Shown here in pieces: positions 9,543-36,883 of a stretch of DNA of 64,000 bases. The notes beneath the pieces are model-generated. The model was not told where the DNA came from. It worked only from the letters and a program-made list of their open reading frames with translations, and did no database searches. The stretch lies in assembly GCA_017625155.1 (NCBI GenBank), contig JAGALP010000006.1:1-64000 (forward strand), written 5' to 3'. The position numbers and the translations under genes are program-made. This DNA comes from Paludibacteraceae bacterium (GTDB taxonomy: Bacteria > Bacteroidota > Bacteroidia > Bacteroidales > Paludibacteraceae). Position 1 is the stretch's first letter. The number at the start of each line of letters is the position of its first letter.

Positions 9543-9854
9543 ATGTCTAAAATCAAATTAGAAGCACCGTTCCGTCAATTCCGTGGCAAAATCTGCAAAC
9601 ACTCCGACATCATCTTCAAACAGATGTACGGCGAAACCTTCACCTCACAAATCTGCAACCCACGTACCAAACCTTACTCTCAAGCAGAGTTAGACCGTCA
9701 GGACTTGTTCCGTCAAGCAGCTGCTGCAACCAAGACTGCCTTGGCAAACCCAACCACTCGTGCTACCTACGAAGCAGAGTTCGAGGCACAAACCAAGTAC
9801 AAATCCCTCTATGGCTATGTCCTGGCAAAAGAGCATGCAAAACTCAAATCTTAA
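9543..9854 (+). CDS. Small paralogue family member 1 (~103 residues)
   Basis: This is one of at least three full-length members of a small family in this region. The shared pattern is an N-terminal P-(I/F)-x2-(I/F)-x-G-K-(I/F)-x-K, a tyrosine-containing strand, an S-x-x-E or S-A-A-Q turn, R-x-x-F, a helix with A-x-x-x-(L/M)-x-(D/N)-P, and a C-terminal KYKSLYGYV. The products are basic and soluble. Small basic proteins of this layout occur in Bacteroidales accessory regions, but I do not know the function; nucleic acid binding is only a guess from charge. Confidence 0.7.
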   Translation: MSKIKLEAPFRQFRGKICKHSDIIFKQMYGETFTSQICNPRTKPYSQAELDRQDLFRQAAAATKTALANPTTRATYEAEFEAQTKYKSLYGYVLAKEHAKLKS

Positions 9855-9968: not shown

Positions 9969-10286
9969 ATGGCACAAGTTGTTTACGAAGACCCAATCCA
10001 TCACCTCTCGGGCAAAATCTCCAAAAAGTACCGCACTTGCTACAACTACCGCAAGCAGTCCGACCGCAAGTACACATCCGTACATGGCGACCGTACCACT
10101 CCAGTTTCCGCATCCGAACGCGCATGGCGTGACACATTTACTCAAATATGTGCTGCCACTCGCGACCGCATGATAGATCCAAACTACATCGCAATGGATC
10201 AAGTAGGTTTTATCAGACAAACCAAGTACAAAACATTCTATCAGTATGTCTGGAACCTCATGCGTGATGAAATAGAAGGCAAGTAA
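9969..10286 (+). CDS. Small paralogue family member 2 (105 residues)
   Basis: It aligns with the previous gene end to end: DPIHHLSGKISKK against APFRQFRGKICKH at the start, and FIRQTKYKTFYQYV against FEAQTKYKSLYGYV near the end. The middle has R-x-x-F and a DP turn as in its paralogue. It follows that gene by about 115 bp. The divergence between the two suggests an old duplication rather than assembly error. Function unknown. Confidence 0.7.
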   Translation: MAQVVYEDPIHHLSGKISKKYRTCYNYRKQSDRKYTSVHGDRTTPVSASERAWRDTFTQICAATRDRMIDPNYIAMDQVGFIRQTKYKTFYQYVWNLMRDEIEGK

Positions 10287-30447: not shown

Positions 30448-30915
30448 ATGGTAGATAAACAATACATACAAACGCTCGTGAAAGAGCAACTGCAAGGTAC
30501 TGGCTATGAACTCATAACGTTGAAGGTTAGTGCACAAAATGAGATTCTTGTAGAAGTGGATAAGCTGGAAGGTGTGGACGTCGATTTTTGTGCTACGCTT
30601 AATCATTTCCTTGTAGAGCAATTAGATGCGCAAGGAATTGAGGATTATGCTTTGGAGGTGGGCAGCGTAAGTTTGACTGCTCCATTTGTAACCAAAATGC
30701 AGTATATGAAGCACCTTGGTCATGATGTGGAGGTCCTAGCATCAGATGGCAAGAAATACCGTGGCGCATTAGTCAGCGTAGATGAAGATACATTTTCTAT
30801 TGACACCGAAGTGATGGTGGCGGTAGAGGGCAAGAAACGTAAGCAAAAAGAGGTGCAAACTCTCACATTTGCGTACAATGAAGTGAAATACACCAAATAC
30901 GATTTGAAATTTTAG
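30448..30915 (+). CDS. rimP: Ribosome maturation factor RimP
   Basis: 155 residues in the conserved position ahead of nusA and infB. The two-domain RimP fold is visible: an N-terminal alpha/beta half with LVEVDKLEGVDVDFCATLNHFL, the linker YALEVGSVSLTAPF (usually VSSPGL/PL in relatives), and a C-terminal SH3-like barrel (KYRGALVSVDEDTFSI). It assists 30S subunit maturation. The gene starts after a hairpin-containing leader and is separated from nusA by a 130-bp repeat element. Confidence 0.93.
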   Translation: MVDKQYIQTLVKEQLQGTGYELITLKVSAQNEILVEVDKLEGVDVDFCATLNHFLVEQLDAQGIEDYALEVGSVSLTAPFVTKMQYMKHLGHDVEVLASDGKKYRGALVSVDEDTFSIDTEVMVAVEGKKRKQKEVQTLTFAYNEVKYTKYDLKF

Positions 30916-30941
30916 AATAATAACAATAAACATTTAAATTA

Positions 30942-31071
30942 CCTCCGACGGCAAGGAGGAGTCTCCCTCGAAAACATCCGAGAAGCTCGTGGCTTCGAGG
31001 ATAGAGTGGAGGCATCGAGCGCCCTAACGACGACGTGGTCGTCGGTCAATGCGCGAGATTGCCGAACACGA
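30942..31071 (+). repeat. 130-bp perfect direct repeat, copy A, before nusA
   Basis: Identical over all 130 bases to 32355-32484. Contained hairpins are CCTCC/GGAGG at the start, CCTCGAA (30966-30972) with TTCGAGG (30994-31000), and CGACGAC (31028-31034) with GTCGTCG (31038-31044), the last ending 4 bp before an ATG at 31049. The repeat ends 1 bp before the nusA ATG at 31073. Confidence 0.95.
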
Positions 31072-31072
31072 A

Positions 31073-32332
31073 ATGGCAACAAAACAAACTAAACAACCTA
31101 TCAATTTGATAGACAGTTTTTCTGATTTTAAGGAATTTAAGAACATTGATCGTCAGACATTAATCAATGTTCTGGAAGATTCTTTCCGCAATGTGATTAC
31201 CAAAATGTATGGTTCTGATGCGAACTATGATGTGATTATCAACCCTGACAAAGGCGATTTGGAAATTTATCGCAATCGCTTGGTAATGGAAGATGATGAT
31301 GTGGCAAACGAAAATACACAAATTGGTATTTCTGAGGCATTAAAACTTGATGATGAGGCTGAAATAGGCGAAGAAGTGACCGACAAAGTGGAGTTTGAGT
31401 CTTTTGGTCGTCGTATGATTCTAAACCTCCGTCAAACGTTGGCTAGTCGTATCCTTGACCTCCAAAAGGAGAATCTTTATCTCCGCTACAGCGAGATGTT
31501 GGGTCAAGTAGTAAGTGGCGAATTGTATCAAGTGTGGAAGAAAGAGATGCTATTGCTTGATGACGAAGGCAACGAACTCTATTTGCCAAAGCAAAACCAA
31601 ATCCCAACCGATTTCTATCGCAAGGGTGACACCGTTCGCGCTGTCGTAGTACAAGTGGACAACAAGAATCAAAATCCTAAGATTATCCTTTCACGTACTT
31701 CGCCATTGTTCTTGCAACGTCTTTTCGAGCAAGAGGTACCAGAGGTTCACGATGGATTGATTGCCATCAAAAATATTGCTCGTATTCCAGGTGAGCGTGC
31801 GAAAGTGGCAGTTGAGTCATTTGATGACCGTATTGATCCTGTAGGCGCGTGCGTAGGTATCAAAGGTGCGCGTATTCATGGTATCGTGCGCGAACTTCGC
31901 AATGAGAATATCGACGTGATCCACTATACCTCGAATATCAATCTTTATATCCAACGTGCATTGGCACCAGCTAAGATTTCCTCTATGACTGTTAACGAAG
32001 AGGAGAAGAAAGTAGATGTATATTTGCAACCAGACGAAGTGTCTTTGGCTATCGGTAAAGGCGGTTACAACATCAAGTTGGCAAGTATGCTGACTGGCTA
32101 CCAAATCGATGTGTATCGTGAAATGGATGATGCTGATAGTGAAGATATCTATTTGGATGAGTTTAACGATGAGATTGATCAATGGGTGCTCGACGCATTC
32201 AAGGCGATTGGTTTAGATACCGCTAAGGCTGTCTTGGGTGTAGATAAAGCTGAACTCATCAAGCGTGTTGATCTCGAGGAAGAAACCATCGATGAGGTAA
32301 TCGCTATCCTCGCAGCAGAATTTGAAGACTAA
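31073..32332 (+). CDS. nusA: Transcription termination/antitermination factor NusA
   Basis: 419 residues from ATG 31073. The N-terminal domain (IDSFSDFKEFKNIDRQTLINVLEDSF), an S1 domain near 130-200, then KH1 (DPVGACVGIKGARIHGIVREL) and KH2 (EVSLAIGKGGYNIKLASML) are seen; a C-terminal acidic helical repeat follows. NusA binds RNA polymerase and controls pausing. An in-frame ATG 24 nt upstream (31049), inside the repeat, would add MREIAEHE, and infB shows almost the same extension. Which start is used is open. It is the second gene of the operon. Confidence 0.93.
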   Translation: MATKQTKQPINLIDSFSDFKEFKNIDRQTLINVLEDSFRNVITKMYGSDANYDVIINPDKGDLEIYRNRLVMEDDDVANENTQIGISEALKLDDEAEIGEEVTDKVEFESFGRRMILNLRQTLASRILDLQKENLYLRYSEMLGQVVSGELYQVWKKEMLLLDDEGNELYLPKQNQIPTDFYRKGDTVRAVVVQVDNKNQNPKIILSRTSPLFLQRLFEQEVPEVHDGLIAIKNIARIPGERAKVAVESFDDRIDPVGACVGIKGARIHGIVRELRNENIDVIHYTSNINLYIQRALAPAKISSMTVNEEEKKVDVYLQPDEVSLAIGKGGYNIKLASMLTGYQIDVYREMDDADSEDIYLDEFNDEIDQWVLDAFKAIGLDTAKAVLGVDKAELIKRVDLEEETIDEVIAILAAEFED

Positions 32333-32354
32333 ATAGAATATAAATAATAAACCC

Positions 32355-32484
32355 CCTCCGACGGCAAGGAGGAGTCTCCCTCGAAAACATCCGAGAAGCT
32401 CGTGGCTTCGAGGATAGAGTGGAGGCATCGAGCGCCCTAACGACGACGTGGTCGTCGGTCAATGCGCGAGATTGCCGAACACGA
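32355..32484 (+). repeat. 130-bp perfect direct repeat, copy B, before infB
   Basis: Base-for-base the same as 30942-31071, including the three hairpins and the in-frame ATG (here 32462) in its last 23 bases. Sequence identity ends 1 bp before the infB ATG at 32486, where copy A has A and copy B has T. Confidence 0.95.
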
Positions 32485-32485
32485 T

Positions 32486-35269
32486 ATGGCTATTAAACTT
32501 ATCAAAGCTTGTAAAGAATTAAACATCGGCATGTCCACCGCCGTGGAATTCTGTAAAAAGCAGGGTAAGGAAATCGCTACGGACCCGAATACCCGTATCG
32601 ATGACGACTTGTACCTACTGCTTGCTAAAGAATTTAACAAGGACATGGCCTTGAAATTAGAAGCAGAGCGTCAAGCACAAGAACGTCAAGAGCGCGAGAT
32701 TCCTAAATCTGTGGCTGTAGAAGAACCTAAAAAGCCAGAGCATATTCCTACCGAGGTGCCTAAGCCCAAGGTAGTTGGCTCTATTGACCTTGATGCTGAT
32801 AAAAAGCGCAAGGCAGAGGAGGAAGCTGCTCGCAAAGCCGCTGAAGAGGCAAAAAAAGCGGAGGAGGCACGCATCGCTGCTCAGAAAGAAGCTGCCGCTA
32901 AGGCAAAAGCCGAAGCGGACGCCAAAGCAAAAGCAGAAGCCGAGGCCAAGAAAGCTGCTCAAGCCGCTCAGGCAGCTAAAGCCAAAGAAGAAGTAGAGGA
33001 ACCTGTGCAAGAAGAAAAAGAGGAAGAAGAAATCTTCCGCTTGGGTAAACCTGTGCTCAAAAATGCACCTAAGGTGTTGGGTAAGATTGATCTAAGCAGT
33101 ATCAATCAGGCTACTCATCCTACCAAGAAAACCAAAGAGGAGAAACGCAAAGAGCGTGAGGCACGCGAGCAACAACGCAAAGCCAACAAACCTGCTACCA
33201 ACAACAATGGTGGCAAATCAGGCAATGCGGCTGATGCACCTAAAGATGGAGGCGAGAAACGCAAACGCGAACGCATCAAACAAAACAAGGTGGACGTAAA
33301 TGATGCGCGCAATCAAAAACCTCAAAAGAAGAACAACAAAGCCAAGGGCTTCAAAGTGGAGGTCGATGACGAGGAGGTACAACGCCAAATCAAGGAGACT
33401 ATCCAACGTCTCCAAGGCAACAAAGGTAAGAGTACTACCAGCAAGCACAAACGCGAGCGTCGCGAGTTAGAGCGCGAGAAGATGGCGCAAGAGCGCGCTG
33501 CGGAGCAAGAGCAAAGCAAGGTGCTCAAACTCACCGAGTTTGTGACCGCCAACGACCTCGCTGTGATGATGAACGTGCCTGTGACCAAGGTCATCGGTAC
33601 CTGTATGATGCTCGGCGTGATGGTAAGTATCAACCAACGTCTCGACGCTGAAACTATCAACCTCGTAGCCGAGGAGTTTGGCTTCTCTACCGAGTTCGTT
33701 TCTGCCGAAGTGGTTGAGGAAATCAATGCCGATGAGGTAATCAACGAAGAGGATATCACCGAACGCTGCCCAATCGTAACCGTCATGGGTCACGTGGACC
33801 ACGGTAAGACATCGCTTCTCGACCATATCCGTAATGCCAACGTGATTGCAGGCGAGGCAGGTGGTATCACCCAACACATTGGTGCGTACAACGTGAAGCT
33901 GAAGAATGGTCAGCACATCACTTTCCTCGATACTCCTGGTCACGAGGCGTTTACCGCTATGCGTGCCCGTGGTGCGAAAGTCACGGATATCGCGATTATC
34001 ATTGTGGCTGCTGACGATGCGGTCATGCCACAGACTATCGAGGCCATCAACCACGCGCAAGCAGCTGGTGTGCCAATGATCTTCGCTATCAACAAGTGCG
34101 ATAAACCAAGTGCTAACCCAGATAAAATTAAGGAGCAACTCTCCAATATGAATATCCTCGTAGAGGATTGGGGTGGCTCTTACCAATGCCAACATATCTC
34201 TGCTAAGAAGGGTGAAGGCGTGTTCGAACTCCTCGAGAAAGTGCTTCTCGAAGCCGAGATGCTCGAACTCAAAGCCAATCCAAACCGCCGTGCCAAGGGC
34301 TCTATCATCGAGTCTTCGCTCGACAAAGGTCGTGGTTATGTGGCTACTGTGCTTGTGCAAGATGGTACCCTCCATCATGGCGATATTGTCCTCGCAGGTA
34401 TCTATCATGGTAAGATCAAAGCCATGTTCAACGAGCGCGGACAACGTATCCAACAAGCCCTTCCTGGCGAGCCATGTTTGATTCTTGGTCTCAATGGCGC
34501 ACCACAAGCGGGTGATGAATTTAACGTGATGGCTACCGAGCAAGAGGCACGCGATATTGCTAACAAACGCGAACAATTGCAACGCGAGATGTCGCTCCGC
34601 ACTAAGAAACACGTTGGTTTGGATGAGATTGGTCGTCGTCTGGCTATTGGTGACTTCAAAGAGCTCAATATCATCGTCAAGGGTGACGTGGACGGCTCTG
34701 TAGAGGCACTCAAAGACTCGCTCATCAAACTCTCTACCGAGAATATCCAAGTCAATGTTATCCACGGTGCTGTGGGTGCAATCTCCGACTCCGATGTCCT
34801 TCTCGCTGCTGCGTCAGATGCGATTATCGTCGGCTTTAATGTCCGTCCTACGAGCACAGCGCGTAAGATGGCAGAGGGCGAAGAAGTGGACATCCGCATC
34901 TATTCTATCATCTACGATGCTATCGAAGAGATCAAGTCGGCTATGGCAGGTATGCTTTCTCCAGATATCAAGGAGGAGGTTACTGCTACGCTTGAGGTAT
35001 TGCAAACTTTCCGTATCTCCAAGGTGGGTACTATCGCAGGTTGTATCGTGCGTGAGGGTAAAGCCAAACGTGCTAATAAATGCCGCGTAATCCGTGACGG
35101 TATCGTTATCCATACTGGCGAACTCTCTTCGCTCAAGCATGGTAAGGATGATATCAAGGAGGCTGGTCTCAATATGGAATGTGGTTTGAGCATCAAGAGT
35201 TACAACGATATTGTAGAAGGCGACCTCATCGAAACCTTCGAGCAAATCGAGGTAGCTAAGACTTTGTAA
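32486..35269 (+). CDS. infB: Translation initiation factor IF-2
   Basis: 927 residues from ATG 32486. It has a short IF2N-type start ([25 protein letters not shown]), a long K/A/E-rich linker to about residue 330, a second IF2N-like segment, then the G domain with [24 protein letters not shown] and NKCDKP, and domains II-IV. It brings initiator tRNA to the 30S subunit using GTP. The long charged linker is normal for Bacteroidota. An upstream ATG at 32462 would add MREIAEHD from the repeat. A terminator closes the operon. Confidence 0.95.
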
Positions 35270-35672: not shown

Positions 35673-36494
35673 TTATAGTTTTCTGTAGTATAGTTGTGCA
35701 GGTGTCTTCATGCCCAAACTTAAATGTGGACGCAATGTATTATAGGTGTGTACTGCATGGTCTACTAGTGGTATTGCTTCTTGCCAATTCCGTGGCGTTG
35801 GCAATGGATCTAGAAACTCATTCTTAATAATACCATTAACTCGCTCAGCCACAGCATTATCCGTAGGGTTACTATCTTCTGTCATACTGATACGGATATG
35901 ATGTTCTTTGAGTTGTGTGATATATCCATCACAACAATATTGTACACCTCTATCCGAATGATGTATAGTGCCACATAGATTACCACCTCCTGCATGTACA
36001 ATCGCCTGATTAAGAGCGGATAGCGTATGTTTTGCCTCCATTGTTGGAGACAGTACATAACCAATTATCATACGAGAAAAAGCATCTGTCACAAGATGTA
36101 GATAACAGAATTTGTCATCTATTGTATAGATATATGTGATGTCACTTACCCATACTTGATTAACATTCTTGATAACAAGTTCTTTAACCAAGTCTGGATA
36201 CTTAAAGTACACATGATTAGAGTTGGTTGTATGATGTGATTTGCGAGGAGGGATAATTAGTTTGTGTTGGTGTAGCAGCCCTAGAAACTTATCTCGCCCC
36301 ATTCCTAATGTTCCGCCTAATACTGAACGAACGAGACAATATAGCTTTAGACCGCCTATCATAGGCATCTCCGAGCGATAATATCTGACAAGCGAAAGAA
36401 TCTCTTTCTCTACTTCTAATTCACTGAATGACTTGCGTTTATGTTTATAATAAGCCTGTTTAGACTTGCCAAACAGTCCGCAGAGAGTTTCCAT
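35673..36494 (-). CDS. IS3-family transposase OrfB, DDE integrase domain
   Basis: 273 residues from its own ATG. An HTH_21-like helical start (ETLCGLFGKSKQAYYKHKRK) leads to the rve integrase core: WVSDITYIYTIDDKF (first D), HHSDRGVQY (second D) and AVAERVNGIIKNEFL (catalytic E). The C-terminus LYYRKL is complete. OrfB alone is normally not the active enzyme; a -1 frameshift joins it to OrfA. The open frame continues upstream of the ATG, in phase with that frameshift. Confidence 0.92.
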   Translation of the reverse strand: METLCGLFGKSKQAYYKHKRKSFSELEVEKEILSLVRYYRSEMPMIGGLKLYCLVRSVLGGTLGMGRDKFLGLLHQHKLIIPPRKSHHTTNSNHVYFKYPDLVKELVIKNVNQVWVSDITYIYTIDDKFCYLHLVTDAFSRMIIGYVLSPTMEAKHTLSALNQAIVHAGGGNLCGTIHHSDRGVQYCCDGYITQLKEHHIRISMTEDSNPTDNAVAERVNGIIKNEFLDPLPTPRNWQEAIPLVDHAVHTYNTLRPHLSLGMKTPAQLYYRKL

Positions 36495-36526
36495 TGTTTC
36501 GTATGGAAACTCTGCGGACAGGCGTT

Positions 36527-36883
36527 CTACTGTTTGGCACCATCTTTTTTTAACAGGTCTATGCCATCTTCTTCTTTAACAATCTCAAGAAGACGCTCAT
36601 AACCAGCAGCGCGGAGTTTATGATACTCCACCTCGCGTAAGAGACGCTCGTTCTCTAAACGAAGATTCTCCAGAGCTTGATCTTTTGCATCCATGTGAAT
36701 TGATTTTCTGCGCAAAGGTACGCCTTTTTTTCCATTTGAGCAAGATATAAGCCAATCTGAAAGGGTTGTTTGGTGAATTTTCCATTTCTTTGCACATTCA
36801 CCTTGACTCATACCTGATGCAAAATAGTCTTCAACAACTTGTTGTTTGAATGACTGAGAGTAATAATTTACTGTTCGCTTCAT
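36527..36883 (-). CDS. IS3-family transposase OrfA, HTH and leucine zipper
   Basis: 118 residues. YSQSFKQQVVEDYFASGMSQGECAKKWKIHQTTLSDWL is the DNA-binding helix-turn-helix that recognises the IS ends. ALENLRLENERLLREVEYHKLRA is the zipper needed for assembly with OrfAB. The frame stops at 36527-36529, shortly after a run of seven A in the mRNA sense. Only the short -1 frameshift is needed to read on into OrfB. Confidence 0.9.
   Translation of the reverse strand: MKRTVNYYSQSFKQQVVEDYFASGMSQGECAKKWKIHQTTLSDWLISCSNGKKGVPLRRKSIHMDAKDQALENLRLENERLLREVEYHKLRAAGYERLLEIVKEEDGIDLLKKDGAKQ
36545..36551 (-). other. A7 slippery site for -1 frameshifting
   Basis: The minus strand reads TTA AAA AAA GAT in the OrfA frame. 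Slipping back one base gives an open frame (RWCQTVERLSAEFPYET) leading straight into OrfB's ATG, the standard IS3 fusion mechanism. Confidence 0.8.
36713..36744 (-). promoter_or_regulatory. Promoter-like site inside OrfA
   Basis: CTTG (complement of 36741-36744) and TACCTTTG (complement of 36713-36720) on the minus strand, 20 bp apart. It could drive OrfB-only transcripts, or be coincidence in coding DNA. Confidence 0.45.

Follow-up and report, generated by a model that had tools for sequence, protein, structure and literature searches.

A pseudoknotted repeat before nusA and infB belongs to a dispersed family in rumen Paludibacteraceae and may be a mobile element adopted as a gene leader

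The 130-base repeat that precedes both nusA and infB in the window (the whole stretch of 64,000 nt analysed herein) is best explained, with a probability of about 0.58, as a short non-autonomous mobile repeat with an RNA structure, those copies that precede an AUG having been taken over as leaders. According to this explanation, a repeat of ~90-200 nt, whose own strand folds as RNA, would be moved by a factor acting in trans and would insert precisely into the DNA, leaving no evident target duplication and setting its 3' end against the edge of a neighbouring feature. A copy landing directly before a start codon would become the new leader of the gene, and the pseudoknot between the loop of its first hairpin and the tail upstream of the AUG would be kept by selection, most likely by setting the access of the ribosome to the start codon and hence controlling translation.

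Sequence comparison within the window bore out the perfect repeat claimed by a preceding sequence-only reading, in that 130 of 130 bases were identical between 30942-31071 and 32355-32484, and the 3' end of each copy stopped 1 base short of an ATG (31073 for nusA and 32486 for infB). The ATG that had been noticed inside both copies was also found, at 31049 and 32462, in the same frame as nusA and infB, respectively. The common N-terminus MREIAEH, which appears in both frames because the spacer is 1 base in both copies, was not supported: in element-free relatives, both NusA and IF2 start from the downstream ATG, and the copy before rseP has a spacer of 0, so that its inner ATG is out of frame. 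The names nusA, infB, rseP and those of the other genes, except for the Pfam-matched ones, were assigned by resemblance and are presumptive. The bases separating the preceding stop codon from the repeat were A+T-rich and unlike each other at the two sites. The 151 nt around the infB copy gave a predicted folding energy of -56.8 kcal/mol (z -3.7), and none of 200 shuffles was equally stable. The features are listed below, with scores from R1, a covariance model built from 14 sequences; a second model, R2, was built from 117 matches, and the E-values of both are rough.

30942..31071, + strand: element copy 1, before nusA, identical to copy 2; R1 match of 160.7 bits at 30937-31071
32355..32484, + strand: element copy 2, before infB, identical to copy 1; R1 match of 160.2 bits at 32350-32484
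30942..30959, + strand: first hairpin H1 of copy 1 (30942-30946 with 30955-30959); helix 1 of the covariation test, 5 of 5 pairs with double changes
30949..30954, + strand: loop letters of H1 in copy 1, the 5' side of the pseudoknot, from loop/tail co-variation
31059..31064, + strand: tail TTGCCG of copy 1, the 3' side of the pseudoknot, 8 bases upstream of the nusA ATG, from its letters and pairing
30961..31013, + strand: helix P2 of copy 1 (30961-30966 with 31008-31013), around a hairpin whose GA/GA inner loop is symmetrical; helices 3-5 of the covariation test
31014..31059, + strand: helix P3 of copy 1 with a GA/GA inner loop, and the P4 hairpin (31028-31034 with 31038-31044); helices 6-8 of the covariation test
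32355..32372, + strand: first hairpin H1 of copy 2, loop letters 32362-32367, lettered as in copy 1
32472..32477, + strand: tail TTGCCG of copy 2, 8 bases upstream of the infB ATG, lettered as in copy 1
31073..32332, + strand: nusA open reading frame with the downstream ATG as start, where element-free relatives start
32486..35269, + strand: infB open reading frame with the downstream ATG as start, where element-free relatives start

The nusA/infB pair is not special among the copies of its family. The genome that the window comes from (1.6 Mb in 38 contigs, 62% complete) yielded 4 copies by DNA search, all ending at a start codon, namely those of nusA, infB, rseP (95%) and a small-protein gene (85%), and the covariance models found 9 (R1) and 10 (R2) copies in this incomplete genome. 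With six other species, which held 13-35 copies each by covariance model, the seven genomes ranged from 10 to 35 copies per genome. In the genus of rumen Paludibacteraceae, the search of relatives with a covariance model that the earlier reading had proposed found the family in 77 of 101 genomes (R1), and the DNA search was positive in 19. Using R2, 12 of 150 genomes (3 of 33 genera) were positive in a family-wide sample and 2 of 247, both of this genus, in an order-wide sample (1 of 173 genera). An exact-pattern search of a named collection returned 10 records, all Paludibacteraceae or Bacteroidales MAGs, and the titles naming a source gave rumen, cecum or colon. Phage and plasmid records held no match to the family, and the exact pattern had 0 matches in IMG/VR. 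The Rfam 15 covariance models gave 0 matches at or above the gathering score across the whole window, and the two matches at E <=10 over 30800-32600 were both below that score and outside the repeat copies. Searches of open-access literature turned up no account of such an element for this bacterial group.

A recent duplication or an assembly artefact confined to the window's genome would suit the identity of the two copies in so incomplete and fragmented an assembly, but it is hardly credible, since many independent assemblies hold copies with different flanks and two of them, G054 and G071, carry the element at both nusA and infB; a misassembly, which had been named as what would undo the observation, is already contradicted by these relatives.

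Covariation among the copies argues that the fold is real. In an alignment of 117 matches (A4; 116 distinct rows), which was fitted to R1 and hence leans towards the proposed structure, this structure paired in 91% of cells with double-sided changes in 37 of 39 pairs, and the covariation score was 0.55 versus 0.17 for shuffles and <=0.10 for slid versions. Another 111 matches, some of them shared with the first set, showed 88% pairing and a covariation score of 0.70 versus 0.19; their number of double-change pairs was not above that of shuffles, 174 of 500 reaching the same count. Since G.U outnumbered A.C at paired positions (277 versus 81), the folded molecule appears, on balance, to be the element's own strand as RNA. 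The G.U and A.C counts by class were 69 and 19 at start codons, 48 and 22 at tRNA/tmRNA, 23 and 0 antisense to stop codons, 38 and 7 antisense to promoters, and 90 and 25 for other copies, with a weak excess at sense promoters (8 and 7) and antisense tRNA (2 and 1).

Where a copy precedes an ATG, the tail ending just upstream of the AUG pairs with the loop of its first hairpin, and the letters of both vary among subtypes yet stay complementary (CGGCAA/TTGCCG, TCGCCA/TGGCGA, CGGAAT/ATTCCG, CTGGCT/AGCCAG, GTGGCT/AGCCAC and CGCGAGCTA/TAGTTCGCG). The own pairing of the copies beat all permutations (0 of 2000 as good; 37 distinct combinations among 54 copies), 3 of the 54 (L177, L308 and L326) having been added by hand after their pairing was seen, and the automatic choice of hairpin being wrong in several rows (e.g. 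L051, L081 and L061), which lowered the observed mean. In a looser automatic test, hairpin and pseudoknot together scored at least 5 in 42 of 47 start-codon copies versus 21 of 165 others, and one of these 21 (L052) sits 5 nt upstream of an ATG; lowering the threshold to 4 gave 43 of 47 versus 66 of 165. Leaders in Bacteroidota are usually A+T-rich and independent of a Shine-Dalgarno site, and a G+C-rich pseudoknot directly before the AUG was therefore unexpected. Conserved structure upstream of genes together with compensatory changes, as in leader RNAs, was found in this family. The suggestion of a control element used twice in one operon survives in part: the element is structured, reused, kept in its fold and probably a leader, but it is not particular to nusA and infB, as it is also found at many unrelated genes, tRNAs and tmRNA.

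The downstream genes are diverse. In the first set, 41 start-codon copies precede nusA, infB, rseP and deoxynucleoside-kinase-like, pnp-like, ftsY-like, tdh-like and HAD-like genes, and those named by Pfam encode V-type ATPase subunit D, DUF3467 and a phosphorylase (PNP_UDP_1). No shared pathway was apparent, which disfavours a single-ligand riboswitch. More broadly, an ordinary class of cis-regulatory RNA, riboswitch-like or a protein-binding leader, could have spread by leader duplication or recombination, leaving the other copies as degenerate relatives. The pseudoknot directly before the AUG in nearly all start-codon copies would be expected of such a class, as would the infB, rseP, kinase-like and HAD-like slots being filled in several species; we nevertheless regard it as unlikely, given the lack of an evident common pathway downstream and the copies located before tRNA/tmRNA, inside coding regions, or on the strand opposite a stop codon, a tRNA 3' end or a promoter.

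A small-protein family lies downstream of 16 of the 41 start-codon copies. It was rejected as the element's partner gene, being present in 60 of 61 genomes in up to 37 copies, with an R2 element anywhere in 8 of 30 loci. One predicted structure had a mean pLDDT of 76, and the members scanned had no Pfam match above the cut-off. Two members of this multi-copy family, about 100-130 aa long, lie in the window at 9543-9845 and 9969-10274.

A match to infB was obtained in 78 genomes, and in the 30 best of these, which were fetched, the element occupied the infB slot in 6 loci. Four of them (G000, G058, G061 and G071) have an element of type A, G039 has one of type B, and the element of G054 is of a third, longer type, whose middle differs while its first hairpin and tail are unchanged. 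The script located nusA in 28 of these loci and found its slot occupied in 3; in a few rows it had chosen the wrong ATG. G000 and G058 have the same infB copy, base for base, despite an identity of only 89% over the first 305 bases of infB, and G061, 99% identical to G000 over the same bases, is without the nusA copy. On these grounds, the perfect identity of the two copies agrees with leader segments having recently been exchanged or homogenised. Across 40 start-codon copies, the nearest occupants of the same slot in related species showed identities of 0.87-1.00 and distant ones 0.58-0.76. The copy in the HAD-like slot of G014, by comparison, was 0.96 identical to infB copies and 0.67-0.76 to the same slot elsewhere. 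The evidence for concerted evolution across these 40 copies is mixed, some slots following descent and others, such as the HAD-like one of G014, holding another subtype.

The 3' ends of the copies lie flush with the edges of neighbouring features. After reduction of 228 matches to 212 distinct copies, which are not independent because related species share sites, 97 of 212 ended flush with a functional edge, versus a mean of 3.4 and a maximum of 13 when the junction was moved by 9-60 nt, the edge windows having been chosen after the position lists had been seen. Flush copies numbered 31 at start codons (control mean 2.2), 31 at the 5' end of a tRNA or tmRNA (control 0, with none at any shift of 9-60 nt), 9 at the 3' end of a tRNA or tmRNA on the other strand (control 0), and 6 at a stop codon on the other strand (control 0.8). 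At the -7 box, whose consensus is TAnnTTTG, 15 were flush in antisense (control 0.24) and 5 in sense (control 0.15). The other 115 copies had no labelled edge; 15 of these read ATG at -1 to 2 nt, missed by the simple gene caller, and many of the remainder adjoin no visible feature.

If the element RNA were processed, or cleaved itself, exactly at its 3' end, so that mature tRNA 5' ends and leaderless mRNAs were released, the position would be functional, and the 31 tRNA or tmRNA copies as well as the compact pseudoknotted fold would be accounted for. We consider this improbable, since other copies are just as flush in antisense at stop codons, tRNA 3' ends and promoters, where the product would be useless, and the Rfam ribozymes are not resembled. 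A more specific proposal is a mobile RNA of a new kind, which would insert itself exactly at functional edges (start codons, mature tRNA/tmRNA 5' ends, tRNA 3' ends and stop codons). Its route could be, for example, reverse transcription in which end-to-end template switching joins the element RNA to cellular RNAs, and it would supply recipient genes with a ready-made pseudoknotted translation-initiation module; this we put forward as a doubtful possibility.

Mobility in the wider sense of the preferred explanation is indicated by filled and empty sites and by in-frame copies in argS and dapB, both of which encode conserved proteins; the presence of three element types in the infB slot of related species also speaks for the preferred explanation. 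A total of 208 flank-joined queries yielded 181 spanning hits, tandem and repeated loci included, and at least three clear filled/empty pairs were obtained in which both flanks align, the element lies at the ATG, and evident target duplication is absent among the matches listed: nusA (filled in G000, empty in G061), the MALIKN gene (filled in G000, empty in G025) and a phosphorylase gene (filled in G026, empty in G035). DapB of G026 aligns with a solved relative up to residue 91 and again from 130, with an in-frame model match at 92-136; for ArgS of G084, the alignment breaks at 311 and resumes at 373, with an in-frame match at 325-368. In the ArgS frame of L105, the insert encoded by the element contains the peptide PTANGAPSKSG, which is found a second time further along. 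Antisense elements at gene 3' ends (the L060 1610-2677 region and the L056 ORF ending at 951) appear to supply C-terminal residues, e.g. SRSAIGSL and QRSAIGSH.

The search for a mobiliser covered the domains Y1_Tnp and RVT_1, and both were rejected as patchy and missing from several copy-rich genomes. Y1_Tnp did not track the copies, being present in 29 of 101 genomes and absent from the copy-rich G014, G038, G039, G077, G081 and G098, and RVT_1 was present in 24 of 101; G014, G039, G077, G081 and G098 had neither. That no transposase or reverse transcriptase with either of these domains follows the copies counts against mobility, as do the 115 copies without a labelled edge, and mobility explains neither the exact edge placement nor the long-kept structure at the same sites (e.g. 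antisense behind guaA in G025, G054 and G477). A slow drift of the 3' edge through repeated replacement was rejected, being opposed by the empty nusA and MALIKN sites, which keep an A+T-rich leader. Integron attC sites and self-cleaving ribozymes, weighed as candidates, were also set aside. Two ORFs on the - strand of the window (35673-36883) resemble an IS3-type transposase pair.

Among known systems, REP elements, which are associated with RAYT (Y1) transposases, are dispersed structured repeats around genes like those described here, but a Y1 transposase does not accompany the present repeats. Pseudoknotted translational leaders, such as riboswitches and ribosomal-protein leaders, share the pseudoknot just before the AUG and the compensatory changes; the present family differs in its lack of a common gene function, its many non-leader copies and the absence of an Rfam match. 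Rickettsia palindromic elements (RPE), as described in the available excerpts of PMC2229807 and PMC10969869, are short repeats of strong predicted fold found between genes and in frame within unrelated genes. By these descriptions, the family resembles RPE in length, fold strength and the occurrence of both intergenic and in-frame copies, the in-frame insertion into unrelated protein genes being seen here in ArgS and DapB. The element differs in occurring in another bacterial group, and in its co-varying loop-tail pseudoknot and edge-flush 3' ends, neither of which figures in those excerpts. MITEs and other small non-autonomous repeats, as far as the excerpt of PMC10969869 goes, are short and multi-copy, have no gene of their own and give stem-loop transcripts, and the element is likewise short, multi-copy and without its own gene. 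As regards the terminal inverted repeats of MITEs, its loop and tail are complementary; of the target duplication, none is evident at the filled/empty sites among the matches listed; and for the parent transposase, Y1_Tnp and RVT_1 were the domains searched.

If this explanation is correct, the family would represent an undescribed kind of structured RNA that is both a dispersed repeat and a kept gene leader. It would make testable the origin of new leaders from mobile DNA, as well as how start codons and tRNA ends can receive a short repeat with near-nucleotide precision in the absence of any known enzyme.

Some individual loci showed further arrangements. At L029 (1469-1733), a variant element occurs as two tandem copies directly upstream of tRNA-Glu. 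At L019, L030, L084, L089 and L090 of G098, promoter-like repeats (TACCTTTGCA or similar) flank the copies on both sides, as if promoter and element had been duplicated together. The 110 bases upstream of the ATG of a MALIKN-like gene at L302 (G025) include an ordinary leader, located at that ATG, and a shortened antisense element that starts at the promoter.
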